This document shows, piece by piece, positions 2,412-7,342 of a stretch of DNA of 10,171 nucleotides. This DNA comes from Eubacterium sp. Its GTDB lineage: Bacteria > Bacillota_A > Clostridia > Lachnospirales > Lachnospiraceae. Every line of letters begins with the position of its first letter. Positions within the stretch are counted from its first letter, which is position 1. The notes beneath the pieces were generated by a model that did no database searches, was not told the origin of the DNA, and worked only from the letters and a program-made list of their open reading frames with translations. A program made the translations under genes and the position numbers. Where the stretch lies: assembly GCA_023663915.1 (NCBI GenBank), contig JAMPGN010000159.1, positions 1 to 10,171 on the forward strand, read 5' to 3'.

Positions 2412-3599
2412 CTACTCTAACTCCCCATCATTATATCGAGCCACGATCGACTGAATACGCTCCACAGGATTCAGCAGATCGCTGATGGAAGTATCATGAT
2501 TCAGTGTATCGATGATATAAGCAATATATTTACTCATGTCGCAGTCGATATACCATTCACGAGCAAGCAATTCCGGTGTCTGGTAGATCAGATTCGTGGT
2601 CAGCACGCGGCAGATCAAGCCGTCGGCGTAAGCCGTGTCAAAACGATCCAACCCCGCCGTAAAGAGTCCGAACGTAGAGAATACAAAGATCCGGTTTGCC
2701 TTGCGCTCTTTCAAGGCGGATGCTACTTCCAAGACGCTCTCACCGGATGAAATCATATCATCGATGATAATCACATCTTTGTCTTCCACGCTAGAACCGA
2801 GAAACTCATGCGCCACGATCGGATTTCTGCCATTTATGATGCGGGTATAATCCCTTCTCTTATAAAACATACCCATATCAAGCCCGAGCACGTTGGCGAT
2901 GTAGATTGCCCGGCTCATACCGCCCTCGTCCGGGCTGACGACCATCATATGATCGTTGTCAATCGTCAGATTTTTTACATGAGTCAGCAGACCTTTGACA
3001 AACTGGTAAGCGGGCTGAACCGTCTCAAATCCGTGCAGCGGGATCGCGTTCTGGACACGAGGGTCGTGGGCATCAAAAGTGATGATATTGTCTACGCCCA
3101 TGTTTACCATTTCCTGCAGGGCAAGCGCACAGTCGAGGGATTCTCTGGCAGCCCTGTTATGCTGTCTGCTCTCGTATAAGTAAGGCATAATAACGGTGAT
3201 CCGTCTCGCCTTGCCGCCCACAGCAGCTATGATACGTTTCAAGTCCTGATAATGGTCGTCGGGCGACATGTGGTTTTCATGTCCGCAGAGGGAATAAGTG
3301 AGGCTGTAATTGGCGACATCTACCAGAAGATAGAGGTCGGAACCGCGCACGGACTGCCTGATTACACCCTTCGCCTCACCGGAACCGAACCGCGGTACAT
3401 TGGCCTTAAAAATATAAGAATCTCTCTGATATCCGGAAAAAGCGAGAGAATCTTTGTGCTCGCTCTCACGCTCTGTCCGCCACTTGACGAGATAGTAGTC
3501 TACCTTTTCACCCAAAGACTTACACCCTTCAAGGGGTATGATTCCGAGGGAGCCTACGGGGATGGTTTCCAGATTTCTTTTTTCTTCGCGTCTGGTCAT
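2412..3599 (-). CDS. prs: Ribose-phosphate pyrophosphokinase (PRPP synthase), long form
   Basis: Makes PRPP from ribose 5-phosphate and ATP in the cytoplasm, feeding purine, pyrimidine, histidine and NAD synthesis. The 395-residue protein is longer than the roughly 315 residues of classical Prs. Visible motifs are MPYLYESRQHNRAARESLD (138-156, the equivalent of the usual PYARQDR loop), TFDAHDPRVQNAIP (174-187), SPDEGGMSRA (222-231) and the PRPP-binding loop VIIIDDMISSGES (276-288). The extra length is mostly N-terminal (about 20-90) plus insertions. I chose ATG 3599 because GTGAGG lies six bases upstream and overlaps the dnaC stop; the frame is also open from 3668, but that start would overlap dnaC by 61 bases. 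It is the third gene of the dnaD-dnaC-prs operon and ends at the terminator 2367-2396. The family call is firm; whether it is regulated like the classical enzyme is unknown. Confidence 0.93.
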   Translation of the reverse strand: MTRREEKRNLETIPVGSLGIIPLEGCKSLGEKVDYYLVKWRTERESEHKDSLAFSGYQRDSYIFKANVPRFGSGEAKGVIRQSVRGSDLYLLVDVANYSLTYSLCGHENHMSPDDHYQDLKRIIAAVGGKARRITVIMPYLYESRQHNRAARESLDCALALQEMVNMGVDNIITFDAHDPRVQNAIPLHGFETVQPAYQFVKGLLTHVKNLTIDNDHMMVVSPDEGGMSRAIYIANVLGLDMGMFYKRRDYTRIINGRNPIVAHEFLGSSVEDKDVIIIDDMISSGESVLEVASALKERKANRIFVFSTFGLFTAGLDRFDTAYADGLICRVLTTNLIYQTPELLAREWYIDCDMSKYIAYIIDTLNHDTSISDLLNPVERIQSIVARYNDGELE

Positions 3600-3607
3600 G
3601 AAAAACC

Positions 3608-4579
3608 TCACTTTCTGTTCATCAGTCTCTTCTTGTACATACGGATATCTTGTCCGGACAATTTGCAAATTTCATAGTGGCTGGTTATGCGGGAGAAGAT
3701 ACGGTCAGAGTATCTATTTCGTAACTCTTCCAATGACAAATTTGTGGAGATCACAGTCGCCTTTTTACCCATATGCCGCTCGTTTAAAAGCGAAAATAAT
3801 TGGGAAGTCACAAACTGGTTTGTCAGTTCCGTGCCTAAATCATCGACGATGAGCAGATCACACTGATATAAGTCCGCATAGGTTTCACGAAGCTCTTCTC
3901 TATTCTTATAATCAAAGGAATTTTTGGAAAGTAAATCAAACAAGCCGGTCGCACTGAAATAGATCACGGAATGTCCGCTCTCGATCAGTTCCTTCGCAAC
4001 ACAGCCGGAAAGGAATGATTTTCCTGTACCCACTGTACCATAAAAAAATAGATTATGGTAGTCAGAATTGAAATTTTTGATAAAATTACGGCAGGTGTTT
4101 ACTGCATTTCGGAAACGGGATAAATCTTCCCCATCATAATATTCGTAGGAAAGGCAGTCAAAGTTCTCTGTCCGGAGCATTTCGCGTATATTGGACTGCT
4201 CGTAGAGAAGTGTGATCATAGCCTGTCGAAAGCAGTGGCATTTCTGCCCGTCCACATATCCGGTATCCTTGCAGTCGGGACATTCGTAAACGGGTTCTAA
4301 ATAATCGGGGGTAAATCCGGCGTCTTTCAGAAGCTGTGCTTTGCGTCCCGATAATTCGGCAAGGGAATCGCGCAGATCTTCCATGGCATCCGGATCACCC
4401 TCAAGCATCTTCTTGCCCTGTGAGACAGAAATAGATGCCACGGCGTCGTCCAAGTCACGGTAGGCGGGAATCCGGTCGTAAACATAGGCGAGTCTGCGCT
4501 CCACTTCGCGTCTGCTCTTTCGCTGTTTCATCTCGTATTGATGAAGGATCATGTCATATTGGGTGTTTGTCAGTGACAC
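3608..4579 (-). CDS. dnaC: DnaC/DnaI-type replicative helicase loader (AAA+ ATPase)
   Basis: A 323-residue helicase loader that would place the DnaB-type replicative helicase on DNA at the origin or at restart sites. The N-terminal part (1-95) is helical and charged. A zinc-binding CPDC...CHC motif follows with Cys100, 103, 114 and 116, as in Bacillus DnaI. The AAA+ domain has Walker A GTVGTGKS (181-188), Walker B LLIVDD (242-247), sensor-1 STN (278-280) and arginine-finger candidates Arg293 and Arg297 in SDRIFSRI. The start is GTG 4579 with AGGAG seven bases before it; this ribosome binding site is adjacent to the stop of the DnaD-like gene, 13 bases upstream. The prs start is 8 bases downstream. 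Such genes are called dnaC or dnaI in Clostridia. The AAA+ loader assignment is secure; the partner helicase is not in the window. Confidence 0.93.
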   Translation of the reverse strand: MSLTNTQYDMILHQYEMKQRKSRREVERRLAYVYDRIPAYRDLDDAVASISVSQGKKMLEGDPDAMEDLRDSLAELSGRKAQLLKDAGFTPDYLEPVYECPDCKDTGYVDGQKCHCFRQAMITLLYEQSNIREMLRTENFDCLSYEYYDGEDLSRFRNAVNTCRNFIKNFNSDYHNLFFYGTVGTGKSFLSGCVAKELIESGHSVIYFSATGLFDLLSKNSFDYKNREELRETYADLYQCDLLIVDDLGTELTNQFVTSQLFSLLNERHMGKKATVISTNLSLEELRNRYSDRIFSRITSHYEICKLSGQDIRMYKKRLMNRK

Positions 4580-4592
4580 AATAGTACTCCTT

Positions 4593-5675
4593 TTAGTTGC
4601 TCAGTAATTCCTGCTCTAAAGCATCGAAATCATAGTCGTTCTGTTTAAACTGGTTAAACTTGTTGGTGGAAGCGCTCTTCGCCGCCTTGGTCTTGTGGTA
4701 ATGCTCGTCCAGCGACAGGATATCGCTCTTGTGGTGCACGCCCGCCTTGTACCAGGCGTTTAAAATACTGTCGGCGTACTCAAAGCGGTGCTTGTCCGTG
4801 GCGAGCACGGTGCGTTCGCAGGCGGCAAAAATAATGTCGGTCGTGAACCCGTATTCTTTCGTCCAGCGCGTGATGTAAGATACTTCCGTCTGGGTTGGCG
4901 TGTCGTTTCTTCCAAGAGCCTGCATGATGGCATAGACGGACTTGTCATATTTACCTGCGAGACGGGCAGCCTGTTTCGGTGTTGAGATTCCCTGTTGTGC
5001 CCAGCTTATCGCGACTTTCTCTATGTATCGGAGATCCTTCTTGCCCCGGTCAACACAGTACTGAATCAGATAATCGATCAAATCTTCGGAAAATCCGAGC
5101 CGATCGGAAATAAACAGGATGGTTCGTACTTCGTTTGCGCTCAGGGTCTTCTTGAGGTATTGTTCCGCCACGAAGAGAAGTCTGGAAGTTGCCTCGTCGG
5201 ATTTAAATGCTTTCAGTTCGTCCAATGTATAGTTAGGTTTGACATAGATATCTTCCTCGCGGGAGTTCTCACTGTCCGCCGCATTTATTTTCGAGGAGAT
5301 CGGCACGACGGAAGCTAGCGGCGTGACTGTCCCGACTGACACCGCAGGCACCGGTGCGATGGCAGGCGCAGTCGGAAGAGGGGCAAAATCCATCAGATGA
5401 ATACCGGTGACATTTTTGCCGTCATCATATTCCAGAGAGAGAAGACGCTGCTTCTCCCAATATTTGAGCGCACGCATGACATCCTTCTCGGTGTAGTTAA
5501 ATTTATCCGCAATATCAGAGATGCTGGTGGAGAGTCTGGCGCTTACCATGCGGATGAGATATAAATAGATTTTGAGCTGCGCGTCGTTGGCAGCTTCCAT
5601 ATATTCATCAATAAAACGGTTGGAAATAACCGTAGAATTGGTATAATTATCTTGATAAATCGTTAAATGACTCAT
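4593..5675 (-). CDS. DnaD/DnaB-like primosome protein (replication initiation)
   Basis: A 360-residue protein of the DnaD/DnaB primosomal family of Firmicutes, which remodels DNA and recruits the helicase-loader complex. The N-terminal part (about 15-90; ISDIADKFNYTEKDVMRALKYWE region) is a winged-helix fold. A Pro/Ala/Val-rich linker (about 97-125) follows. Two tandem DnaB_2-type helical modules lie at about 140-232 and 240-315, and the tail ends YDFDALEQELLSN, typical of this family. I chose ATG 5675 with AGGTGG seven bases upstream; GTG 5681 is in frame but only one base from that ribosome binding site. It is the first gene of an operon with the helicase loader and prs. Likely promoter at 5742-5750, with DnaA-box-like sites at 5815-5930 upstream, so DnaA control is plausible. 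Whether it acts as DnaD or DnaB of Bacillus is not resolved. Confidence 0.88.
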   Translation of the reverse strand: MSHLTIYQDNYTNSTVISNRFIDEYMEAANDAQLKIYLYLIRMVSARLSTSISDIADKFNYTEKDVMRALKYWEKQRLLSLEYDDGKNVTGIHLMDFAPLPTAPAIAPVPAVSVGTVTPLASVVPISSKINAADSENSREEDIYVKPNYTLDELKAFKSDEATSRLLFVAEQYLKKTLSANEVRTILFISDRLGFSEDLIDYLIQYCVDRGKKDLRYIEKVAISWAQQGISTPKQAARLAGKYDKSVYAIMQALGRNDTPTQTEVSYITRWTKEYGFTTDIIFAACERTVLATDKHRFEYADSILNAWYKAGVHHKSDILSLDEHYHKTKAAKSASTNKFNQFKQNDYDFDALEQELLSN

Positions 5676-5741
5676 TTCCACACCACCTCTGTTCCATAAC
5701 GTACCGGAACGTATTAAGCGCCTACGAAGGGCATATGCTGA

Positions 5742-5750
5742 ATTATAGCA
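5742..5750 (-). promoter_or_regulatory. Extended -10 promoter of the dnaD-dnaC-prs operon
   Basis: On the minus strand, TGCTATAAT (TGn plus TATAAT) lies about 67 bases before the dnaD-like ATG. No good -35 hexamer is seen at 16-18 bases, as expected for an extended -10 promoter or one needing an activator. The arms TATGCT (5734-5739) and AGCATA (5747-5752) form an inverted repeat around the -10 box that could be an operator. Confidence 0.6.
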
Positions 5751-5814
5751 TAGCGATTTTTAAAATGAAATAGGCAAAACGCCATAAACAAAATCAGAAC
5801 AAGAGTTCATCAAA

Positions 5815-5930
5815 TGTGGACAATGTGGATGATATTTGAAAAACTTGATAAAATGGCATTTCTTATACACAAAAATATCCACAGAAAAACGAGGAATATT
5901 GCGTGCATTTTCTGTGGATATTGTGAATAA
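5815..5930. promoter_or_regulatory. Cluster of six DnaA-box-like 9-mers
   Basis: Six 9-mers each differ by one base from TTATCCACA: TTGTCCACA (5815-5823, minus), TCATCCACA (5824-5832, minus), TTATACACA (5863-5871, plus), ATATCCACA (5875-5883, plus), ATATCCACA (5913-5921, minus) and TTATTCACA (5922-5930, minus). They form three pairs; in the two outer pairs the boxes abut exactly. Pair-to-pair spacing is about 50 bp. The cluster fills the murC-dnaD gap upstream of the dnaD promoter. DnaA is known to act as a transcription factor at clustered boxes. Binding here is inferred from sequence. Confidence 0.6.
5866..5922 (-). terminator. Probable intrinsic terminator of murC
   Basis: A perfect 15-bp inverted repeat (5874-5888 and 5908-5922; arm AATATCCACAGAAAA) with a 19-base loop begins eight bases after the murC stop. 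On the minus strand it is followed by a short T run (ATTTTTGTG). The stem is AT-rich, so termination may be weak. The same arms contain two of the DnaA-box-like sites, so the repeat may equally reflect protein binding. Confidence 0.5.
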
Positions 5931-7310
5931 TTATTTTTGAAGCAGTTTTTCACCGATGTTTACGACATCGCCCGCACCCATAGTTATCAACAAATCGTCC
6001 TTTGTGCAATTTTTCAGAAGAAAATTTTCGATCTCTTCAAAAGAGGAAAAATAGTAGCAGTGGTGTCCGAGTTTTTCAATCTCCGCCTGAAGAGTCTTAG
6101 AACTGATTCCGAGCGTGTCTTTCTCTCTGGCGGCATAGATATCCGCAAGCACGATCTCATCCGACAGGGAGAGAGCCTTGGCAAATTCGGTAAGAAAAGC
6201 CTTTGTCCGCGTGTAAGTGTGGGGCTGGAATACGCACCAGATCGTATGATGCGGATAATTCTGCGCGGCGTGAAGCGTCGCCCGAATCTCGGTAGGGTGG
6301 TGCGCATAGTCGTCTATGATGGTGAATCCATTCAACTTGCCTTTGTATTCAAATCGTCTGTCCGTTCCGCCGTAGTGGAGCAGAGCCCCGGCGGTCACTT
6401 CATCGGAAATTCCGAGAAGATCGGCTAATGCGATGGCGGCAAGGGCATTGTATACATTGTGTTCTCCGGGAACGTGCAGAGAAAATGATTCTTCTTTGCC
6501 GTCTTTGCGCATAAGATAGAAAGAGGGACAACCTAAAGCATCATAAGTGATGTTTTTCGGATAATAGTCGCAGCCGGAAGAAGAACCGTAGGTGATGACT
6601 TTGCATGGAAGGTCAGCGGTGATCTCTTCGCAGCGGTCGATATCACCGTTGATGATGAGCATCCCGTCGGGCGGCAGAAGACGCGCGAACTCATGAAATG
6701 AATTGCGGATATCGTCAATATCCTTAAAGAAATCCAGGTGGTCTTCTTCTATATTAAGGATGATACTGATCTTGGGATAAAAACTTAAGAAGCTATTTGT
6801 ATATTCACACGCTTCGGTTACAAAACAATCGGAAGAGCCTACGCGGATGTTGCCGCCGATCGGTTGATAGATTCCGCCAATGGAAAGGGTAGGATCGTCA
6901 TTGTTTTCCAACAAAATCTGGGATATCATGGAAGTGGTCGTGGTCTTGCCATGTGTGCCGCTGACGGCGATAGGAGTCTTGTAATTCTTCATCATCTGTC
7001 CTAAAAGCTGCGCTCTGGTAAGTGACGGCAGCCCTAATTTGCCTGTGGCGGTCATTTCCGGATTATCGGGTCTGATCGCGCTGGTATATACTACCAGATC
7101 AATATCGGAAGAAAGATTTTCCTCGCGCTGTCCATAATAGATCACAGCCCCCTGTTCTTCCAGCTTGCGGGTGAGAGGCGACGGCGCCCTGTCGGAACCG
7201 GATATACGGAAACCTTCGGACAGCAGAATCTCGGCGAGACCGCTCATGCTGATGCCGCCGATGCCGATGAAATATATATGAATTGGGTCTTTAAAATTGA
7301 TTTGATACAT
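5931..7310 (-). CDS. murC: UDP-N-acetylmuramate--L-alanine ligase
   Basis: Adds L-alanine to UDP-N-acetylmuramic acid using ATP, the first amino-acid step of peptidoglycan precursor synthesis in the cytoplasm. The 459 residues match normal MurC length and all three domains are visible: the N-terminal Rossmann-like UDP-binding motif GIGGISMSGLAE (16-27), the ATP loop SGTHGKTTTTSM (117-128) with EACEYTNSF (166-174) and NIEEDHLDFF (186-195), PGEHNVYNALA (281-291), and C-terminal DDYAHHPTEI (333-342), QPHTYTRT (362-369) and GAGD (445-448). I chose ATG 7310 because GGGAG lies six bases upstream; an in-frame ATG at 7331 precedes that ribosome binding site. It is monocistronic here, with its own promoter at 7343-7371 and a probable terminator at 5866-5922. 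Confidence 0.96.
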   Translation of the reverse strand: MYQINFKDPIHIYFIGIGGISMSGLAEILLSEGFRISGSDRAPSPLTRKLEEQGAVIYYGQREENLSSDIDLVVYTSAIRPDNPEMTATGKLGLPSLTRAQLLGQMMKNYKTPIAVSGTHGKTTTTSMISQILLENNDDPTLSIGGIYQPIGGNIRVGSSDCFVTEACEYTNSFLSFYPKISIILNIEEDHLDFFKDIDDIRNSFHEFARLLPPDGMLIINGDIDRCEEITADLPCKVITYGSSSGCDYYPKNITYDALGCPSFYLMRKDGKEESFSLHVPGEHNVYNALAAIALADLLGISDEVTAGALLHYGGTDRRFEYKGKLNGFTIIDDYAHHPTEIRATLHAAQNYPHHTIWCVFQPHTYTRTKAFLTEFAKALSLSDEIVLADIYAAREKDTLGISSKTLQAEIEKLGHHCYYFSSFEEIENFLLKNCTKDDLLITMGAGDVVNIGEKLLQK

Positions 7311-7342
7311 GGATATCTCCCTATATTTCATTTTTTACTAGT

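Follow-up and report, generated by a model that had tools for sequence, protein, structure and literature searches.

The DNA between murC and a dnaD-like gene in Eubacterium sp. carries a cluster of DnaA-box-like sites which, by comparison of relatives, resolves into two candidate modules: module A at the 3' end of murC and module B on the promoter side. The window, that is, the whole stretch of DNA analyzed, is 10,171 nucleotides long. Judged from its sequence and that of its relatives, the cluster is probably a two-module DnaA-binding locus outside oriC, in which module A would assemble or hold DnaA and module B would regulate the dnaD-dnaC-prs operon. Most likely, the locus would titrate or organize DnaA and, in Lachnospiraceae, would also control dnaD. 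We infer DnaA binding, DnaA titration, and a response of dnaD transcription from the box sequences and their conservation, the spacing of module A, the synonymous constraint within murC, the covariation of a hairpin, and the separation of the cluster from oriC in a relative.

The murC, DnaD-domain, AAA+ helicase-loader-like, and prs-like genes around the cluster are all encoded on the minus strand. The murC gene (5931..7331) scores 455.7 bits against TIGR01082, whose cut-off is 335.1, and the dnaD-like gene (4593..5681) encodes a DnaB_2/DnaD domain (PF07261, 1e-39; TIGR01446, 1.3e-23). A helicase-loader-like AAA+ ATPase gene of the dnaC/dnaI type (3608..4579) follows, with 349.7 bits against NF005304 (cut-off 215) and matches to the IstB and DnaA AAA+ Pfam families, and then a prs-like ribose-phosphate pyrophosphokinase gene (2412..3668; NF005299, 586.6 bits, cut-off 327), whose start is placed mechanically and overlaps the preceding gene. 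A putative extended -10 element of the dnaD operon, TGCTATAAT (5742..5750, minus strand), was assigned by consensus match and is conserved in an alignment of 32 sequences. Elsewhere in the window, the plus strand carries a type I restriction specificity (Methylase_S) reading frame of 232 amino acids near the window edge (262-960), a RelB-like antitoxin gene (1124-1438) overlapping a PIN_3-domain gene (1438-1860), likely a toxin-antitoxin pair, and a gene for a small NTP_transf_2-domain nucleotidyltransferase (2058-2408), convergent with prs.

A first-pass annotation, made from the letters of the window, had listed six 9-mers one mismatch away from TTATCCACA in front of dnaD and a seventh such site within murC (5984-5992), and the coordinates and strands of all seven proved accurate. 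The whole window contains 11 one-mismatch matches, compared to a mean of 2.82 and a maximum of 7 in 200 dinucleotide shuffles. In the murC-dnaD gap (5682-5931) there are 6, compared to 0.10 expected from the local first-order composition, with a maximum of 2 in 5,000 samples. The cluster is therefore beyond chance, as had been claimed; the earlier estimate of 0.02 applied to a shorter stretch and leads to the same conclusion. Six boxes in 116 bp make this a DnaA-box cluster in the sense of several boxes within ~300 bp. The outer pairs abut exactly, as described at first pass, but the middle pair has a 3-bp gap, and the picture of three equal ordered pairs does not hold. One member of the middle pair, ATATCCACA (5875..5883, plus strand), is best read as the 3' arm of a hairpin; the other, the plus-strand "box" TTATACACA (5863..5871), is hardly conserved. 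The latter site is in place in 2 of 79 close loci, as an identical 9-mer in L001 and as a different one-mismatch form in L020, and L029 has no counterpart at the equivalent place.

How widely is the cluster conserved? The close set comprised 80 loci collected by DnaD similarity and not by boxes, 79 of which were usable (L002 is too short upstream). Within 300 bp upstream of dnaD, at least three boxes were found in 79/79 close loci and at least four in 78/79; without counting the murC box, the numbers are 78/79 and 76/79, respectively. Box density is 4 to 9 per 300 bp in 78/79 loci, with L072 the weakest at 3. At the family level, all 120 genomes (120/120) gave a DnaD match, and 70 of the 120 were sampled, namely, the 30 best-scoring loci and 40 hand-chosen from the list. 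At least three boxes in 300 bp occur in 63 of these 70 (58 without the murC box) and at least four in 58, with an abutting pair in 56 and a perfect box in 59; the cluster is lost in L184, L185, and L186, and only two boxes are left in L147, L187, L189, and L203. The order sample consisted of 20 of 118 genomes, hand-chosen where the dnaD start was clear, and the cluster is present in 14/20, corresponding to 14/16 with murC upstream and 0/4 without; L311 and L313 have murC upstream and no cluster. The class sample took 20 of 146 genomes, two of them family members, with several dnaD starts extrapolated from a C-terminal match; 18/20 lack both murC upstream and the cluster, and at least two of these (G355 and G422) belong to the order. 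Since the genomes are related, these counts are not independent events, and the family, order, and class samples are partly hand-picked. Scoring of boxes across Lachnospiraceae, proposed as a check at first pass, points to a selected DnaA-type cluster conserved with dnaD.

Module A consists of an inverted DnaA-box variant inside murC, TTATCAACA (5984..5992, plus strand; TGTTGATAA on the coding strand), and a tandem pair just outside the gene. Box 1, TTATTCACA (5922..5930, minus strand), lies directly past the murC stop codon, and box 2, ATATCCACA (5913..5921, minus strand), abuts box 1 and coincides with the 5' arm of a terminator-like hairpin of murC. The murC box is frozen at synonymous positions: of 72 murC genes, 69 have TTG, 72 have ATA, and 71 have ACT at its three codons, while the shares of these codons elsewhere in murC are 0.09, 0.22, and 0.22, all minority codons. 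Among 131 conserved degenerate columns of these 72 genes, codon fixation at the three positions is the 4th, 1st, and 2nd highest, respectively. The murC box TTATCAACA deviates from the consensus at position 6, and its strength as a DnaA box is putative. The murC motif is also lost in all five examined genomes (5/5) with a cluster-less murC-dnaD gap (L323, L324, L325, L328, and L332).

The spacing within module A is nearly invariant. Of 145 sequences anchored at the murC box, 130 have the best tandem pair at offset 62: 75/77 in the close group (to which the window belongs), 43/56 in the family, and 12/12 in the order. Over 68 family and order rows, boxes 1 and 2 carry 1.24 bits per column, compared to 0.14 in the gap and 0.31 downstream. 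Both the offset and the bits-per-column counts need an exact murC motif, which excludes 3/80 close, 14/70 family, and 8/20 order rows. An order-wide scan allowing gaps of 50 to 64 matched 40 of 118 genomes, whereas a reversed-control pattern matched none of the 118 in the same scan; the class scan matched 4 of 146, all 4 also among the family draws. In the 24 order hits translated (of the 40), the position of the murC stop varies: offsets of 56, 59, and 62 occur, and five genomes have the stop past the boxes. The 62 register is kept in 23 of these 24 (G089 is off by 1 bp), with box 1 itself at 62 in 20, and a variant box 1 at 62 plus box 2 at 71 in G536, G477, and G479. Since the boxes hold this register while the murC stop moves, DNA geometry is a likelier determinant of the spacing than the length of the protein. 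In the five genomes G456, G473, G480, G486, and G491 (L312, L307, L308, L306, and L309), the murC frame stays open across the boxes and ends at a later stop, so that the protein gains a C-terminal tail encoded by the boxes (LSTLST and more).

A third box-like 9-mer follows 3 bp on in many rows: TTATCAACA, TTATACACA, or TTTTCAACA in 15/56 family rows and TTGTCAACA, TTTTCAACA, TTGTTCACA, or TTATTAACA in 11/12 order rows. It is absent from the commonest 9-mers listed for the close rows.

Module A also occurs apart from dnaD. In G536, G499, G483, and G477, murC retains the motif and the boxes with other genes next to it, and the available DNA upstream of dnaD in G536, G499, and G483 (L315, L342, and L344) contains zero one-mismatch boxes; the G477 locus (L343) scarcely extends upstream of dnaD. 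Partial versions are found at murC in G541 and G546, and no boxes directly follow murC in G512 or in the class-level loci L327, L329, and L333. The persistence of module A with dnaD elsewhere means that it is not only a dnaD regulator, and that candidate explanation was rejected.

The terminator-like hairpin after murC (5871..5922, minus strand) is formed by arms at 5908-5922 and 5874-5888, with a T-run at 5871-5875. The arms are perfect 15-nt inverted repeats, which the first-pass annotation had missed, and they bring the first and second pairs of sites into one hairpin. RNA folding of 5862-5925 gave -20 kcal/mol with a z score of -5.4, and the folded stretch is closed by TTTTT in the murC orientation. 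This pattern, a stable stem and then a T-run, is that of an intrinsic terminator, with termination itself putative; the 19-nt loop is above the limit of a simple terminator scanner, hence the absence of the hairpin from the scanner list. Arm pairing of at least 9/11 is seen in 68/77 close and 36/56 family rows (shuffles, 50/1540 and 9/1120) and in only 2/12 order rows. Among 112 distinct sequences, the six stem pairs adjoining the boxes are paired in 72 to 88%, compared to 42 to 47% with arms swapped between sequences. Pairing above the arm-exchange level indicates that the stem is kept by compensating changes; the search pattern for this set fixed the box cores, so that the invariance of the cores there is no evidence. 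In many distant relatives the 3' arm is TGTGGATTT, where the pairing is retained and the one-mismatch box is gone.

Module B is the promoter-side array, with the boxes TCATCCACA (5824..5832, minus strand) and TTGTCCACA (5815..5823, minus strand). The latter reads TTATCCACA in many close relatives and ends 67 bp before the -10 hexamer. Among 76 usable close sequences, module B has three boxes in 26, two in 41, and one in 9, and the distance from the last box to the extended -10 is 66 to 71 bp in 63/76 and 78 to 79 bp in 13/76. When the rule was widened slightly, the distance was 66 to 71 or 78 to 80 bp in 80/80 close sequences, window included. In 57 family genomes, for which the -10 is a consensus match and two outliers of 33 and 155 bp were omitted, 69 to 70 bp is the commonest distance (19/57), and the rest are mostly ~42 to 60 or 78 to 82 bp. 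The array-to-array distance is not fixed; its standard deviation in close sequences is 19.7 and that of the -10-to-ATG distance is 20.9, with a range of ~20 to 33 given elsewhere in the analysis. One-turn periodicity of module B is no more than suggestive, with R of ~0.5 at periods of 9 to 10 bp and no sharp optimum among genomes that are related. Eight family loci (L146, L151, L174, L179, L181, L182, L199, and L210) have a single array, whose murC-side last box lies 52 to 54 bp before the -10. In G308 (L207), two abutting pairs remain before dnaD; a murC was not found further upstream there, and the genome gives only divergent murC-like matches, the best with 33% identity. Divergent trpR-like and queA-like frames, named by eye, lie upstream of dnaD in L207. 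The first-pass interpretation is supported in part: the promoter-side array tends to keep a certain distance from the putative dnaD -10, but a role of the whole cluster in serving dnaD is not supported, since the murC-side geometry survives with dnaD elsewhere and those dnaD genes are without a cluster.

The relation to the origin was examined in G083, a complete relative of 3.59 Mb, of which 40 stretches totaling 800 kb were read. GC skew flips at dnaA and a second time somewhere from 1.72 to 1.90 Mb, while no switch occurs at the cluster at 3.3325 Mb, where the skew is negative throughout. The comparison by GC skew suggested at first pass accordingly separates the cluster from oriC in this genome. 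The cluster lies ~257 kb from dnaA and is the densest of the 800 kb read, with 9 boxes per 300 bp compared to 6 and 4 flanking dnaA. The dnaA-dnaD distance is 235 to 286 kb in G083, G152, G041, G032, and G148, 668 kb in G114, and ~1.0 Mb in G141; it is ~100 to 350 kb in G001, G010, G015, G058, G060, G097, and G106, where one contig holds both genes. Around dnaA, too, most of these genomes have clusters of the same 9-mer; L092 has none.

In the two-module reading, module A, comprising the murC inverted box, 62 bp, and the tandem pair, would be an element of Lachnospirales on which DnaA assembles with a defined geometry; in many distant relatives a third box, TTNTCAACA-like, lies 3 bp further on. 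Its inner tandem box would also serve as one arm of the terminator-like hairpin after murC, and the module probably keeps DnaA off oriC or reshapes DnaA. In module B, the one to three boxes would stand at favored spacings from the dnaD-dnaC-prs extended -10, with bound DnaA acting as a transcription factor. Our guess is that dnaD may be repressed at high free DnaA, which would create feedback. Such a loop is plausible because, as reported for Bacillus subtilis, deleting six box clusters leads to early initiation and DnaD inhibits cooperative DnaA binding (PMC5295017). A further reading, which we regard as unlikely, holds that the locus is a datA/DARS-like DnaA-remodeling center of Lachnospirales, which the helicase-loader operon joined in Lachnospiraceae to form a DnaA-DnaD feedback loop. 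Module A would then be a rigid nucleoprotein scaffold made up of the inverted box, 62 bp (about six turns), the tandem pair, 3 bp, and the third box; encoded partly in murC codons and partly in the terminator-like hairpin, the scaffold would alter the state or availability of DnaA. DnaA would set the supply of DnaD, and DnaD would antagonize DnaA.

Set against the two-module reading, a pure DnaA sink, with the whole cluster titrating DnaA near the origin and the proximity of dnaD incidental, is unlikely. The persistence of module A at murC without an adjoining dnaD speaks for a sink, as do the origin-proximal position in most relatives with both genes on one contig (in G083, for instance, 257 kb in a genome of 3.59 Mb), the box density above that of oriC in G083, and the precedent of six DnaA-box clusters described in B. 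subtilis (PMC5295017). A sink, however, does not need a rigid 62-bp geometry and sits poorly with module B, whose spacing to the dnaD -10 takes preferred values even as other distances vary and which accompanies dnaD in G308, where no murC was found upstream. That the sites belong to another protein and only resemble DnaA boxes is improbable; the murC-internal 9-mer is an atypical box and DnaA binding is putative, yet clusters of the identical 9-mer surround dnaA in most of these genomes (L092 excepted).

The two remaining explanations concern the hairpin and the origin. The sites could derive mostly from the terminator hairpin of murC, with their box-likeness coincidental, given that 2 of the 6 sites sit in its arms, that the hairpin covaries, and that arm pairing is common in the close and family rows (68/77 and 36/56). 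This is very improbable: box 1, module B, and the murC box are conserved although the conserved stem does not include them, and order-level genomes still have boxes, with arm pairing down to 2/12. The same two observations, conserved boxes outside the stem and boxes in order genomes mostly without arm pairing, led us to reject the candidate that the locus is only a terminator. The basal unwinding element of oriC consists of tandem boxes and a DnaA-trio. The cluster resembles this element in its abutting box pair but differs in that its arrays lack a trio-like run and do not stand at a skew switch. A second or former chromosomal origin is scarcely credible, even though tandem pairs similar to the abutting boxes lie downstream of dnaA in L164 and L166. 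In the one genome examined for it, GC skew remains negative across the cluster and switches at dnaA; a scripted search with a trio pattern found no trio-like run within 40 nt after tandem arrays (0/239), whereas the same pattern gives one just downstream of dnaA in L164. On these two grounds, skew in one complete relative and no trio-like run after the arrays, the origin was rejected as a candidate.

DnaA-box clusters outside oriC are already known. Those reported in B. subtilis, at ywcI-vpr, gcp-ydiF, trmE-jag, ywlC, yqeG-sda, and yydA, have been tied to initiation timing and transcription control (PMC4447404; PMC5295017). The B. subtilis clusters described there and the present one are alike in having several boxes within ~300 bp outside oriC, some before promoters. 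They differ in location, none of the top 20 DnaA regions given in PMC4447404 being at murC or dnaD, and in three features of the present locus: a box within codons, one in a terminator-like hairpin arm, and a module A geometry kept across the order. Escherichia coli datA and DARS1/DARS2, which control the supply of DnaA, are likewise loci with DnaA boxes at a distance from oriC (PMC5295017); no sequence homology of the present locus to them is claimed. Within the portion of the open-licence literature covered, no report was found of DnaA boxes at murC-dnaD or of dnaD control by DnaA. What is new here is the codon-embedded box, the near base-pair-exact spacing across the order, the box shared with a terminator-like hairpin, and the association with the helicase-loader promoter within the family. 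Clostridial DnaA control is little known, and for Clostridioides difficile it is called unknown in the text of the origin paper (PMC7561715). The murC-dnaD module offers a defined locus where small mutations could separate the titration, DnaA-state, and transcription models.

Genome-wide, the tandem pattern TTATCCACANTATCCACA matches in 78 of 120 family genomes. Among the 150 tandem pairs listed, 88 (from 60 genomes) are situated <900 bp upstream of dnaD, and the other 62 (from 50 genomes) map elsewhere. Another tandem pair that recurs is found near hpf, the gene for the ribosome hibernation factor, in L235, L236, L244, L249, L258, and L259, that is, in 6 of 14 examined loci away from dnaD, several of which also have secA or an NlpC/P60-type gene (named by eye). 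In G083, near 3,407,818 (L273), seven boxes in 300 bp lie by a V-type ATPase subunit D-like gene, and a similar gene, identified by eye, occurs in L255.
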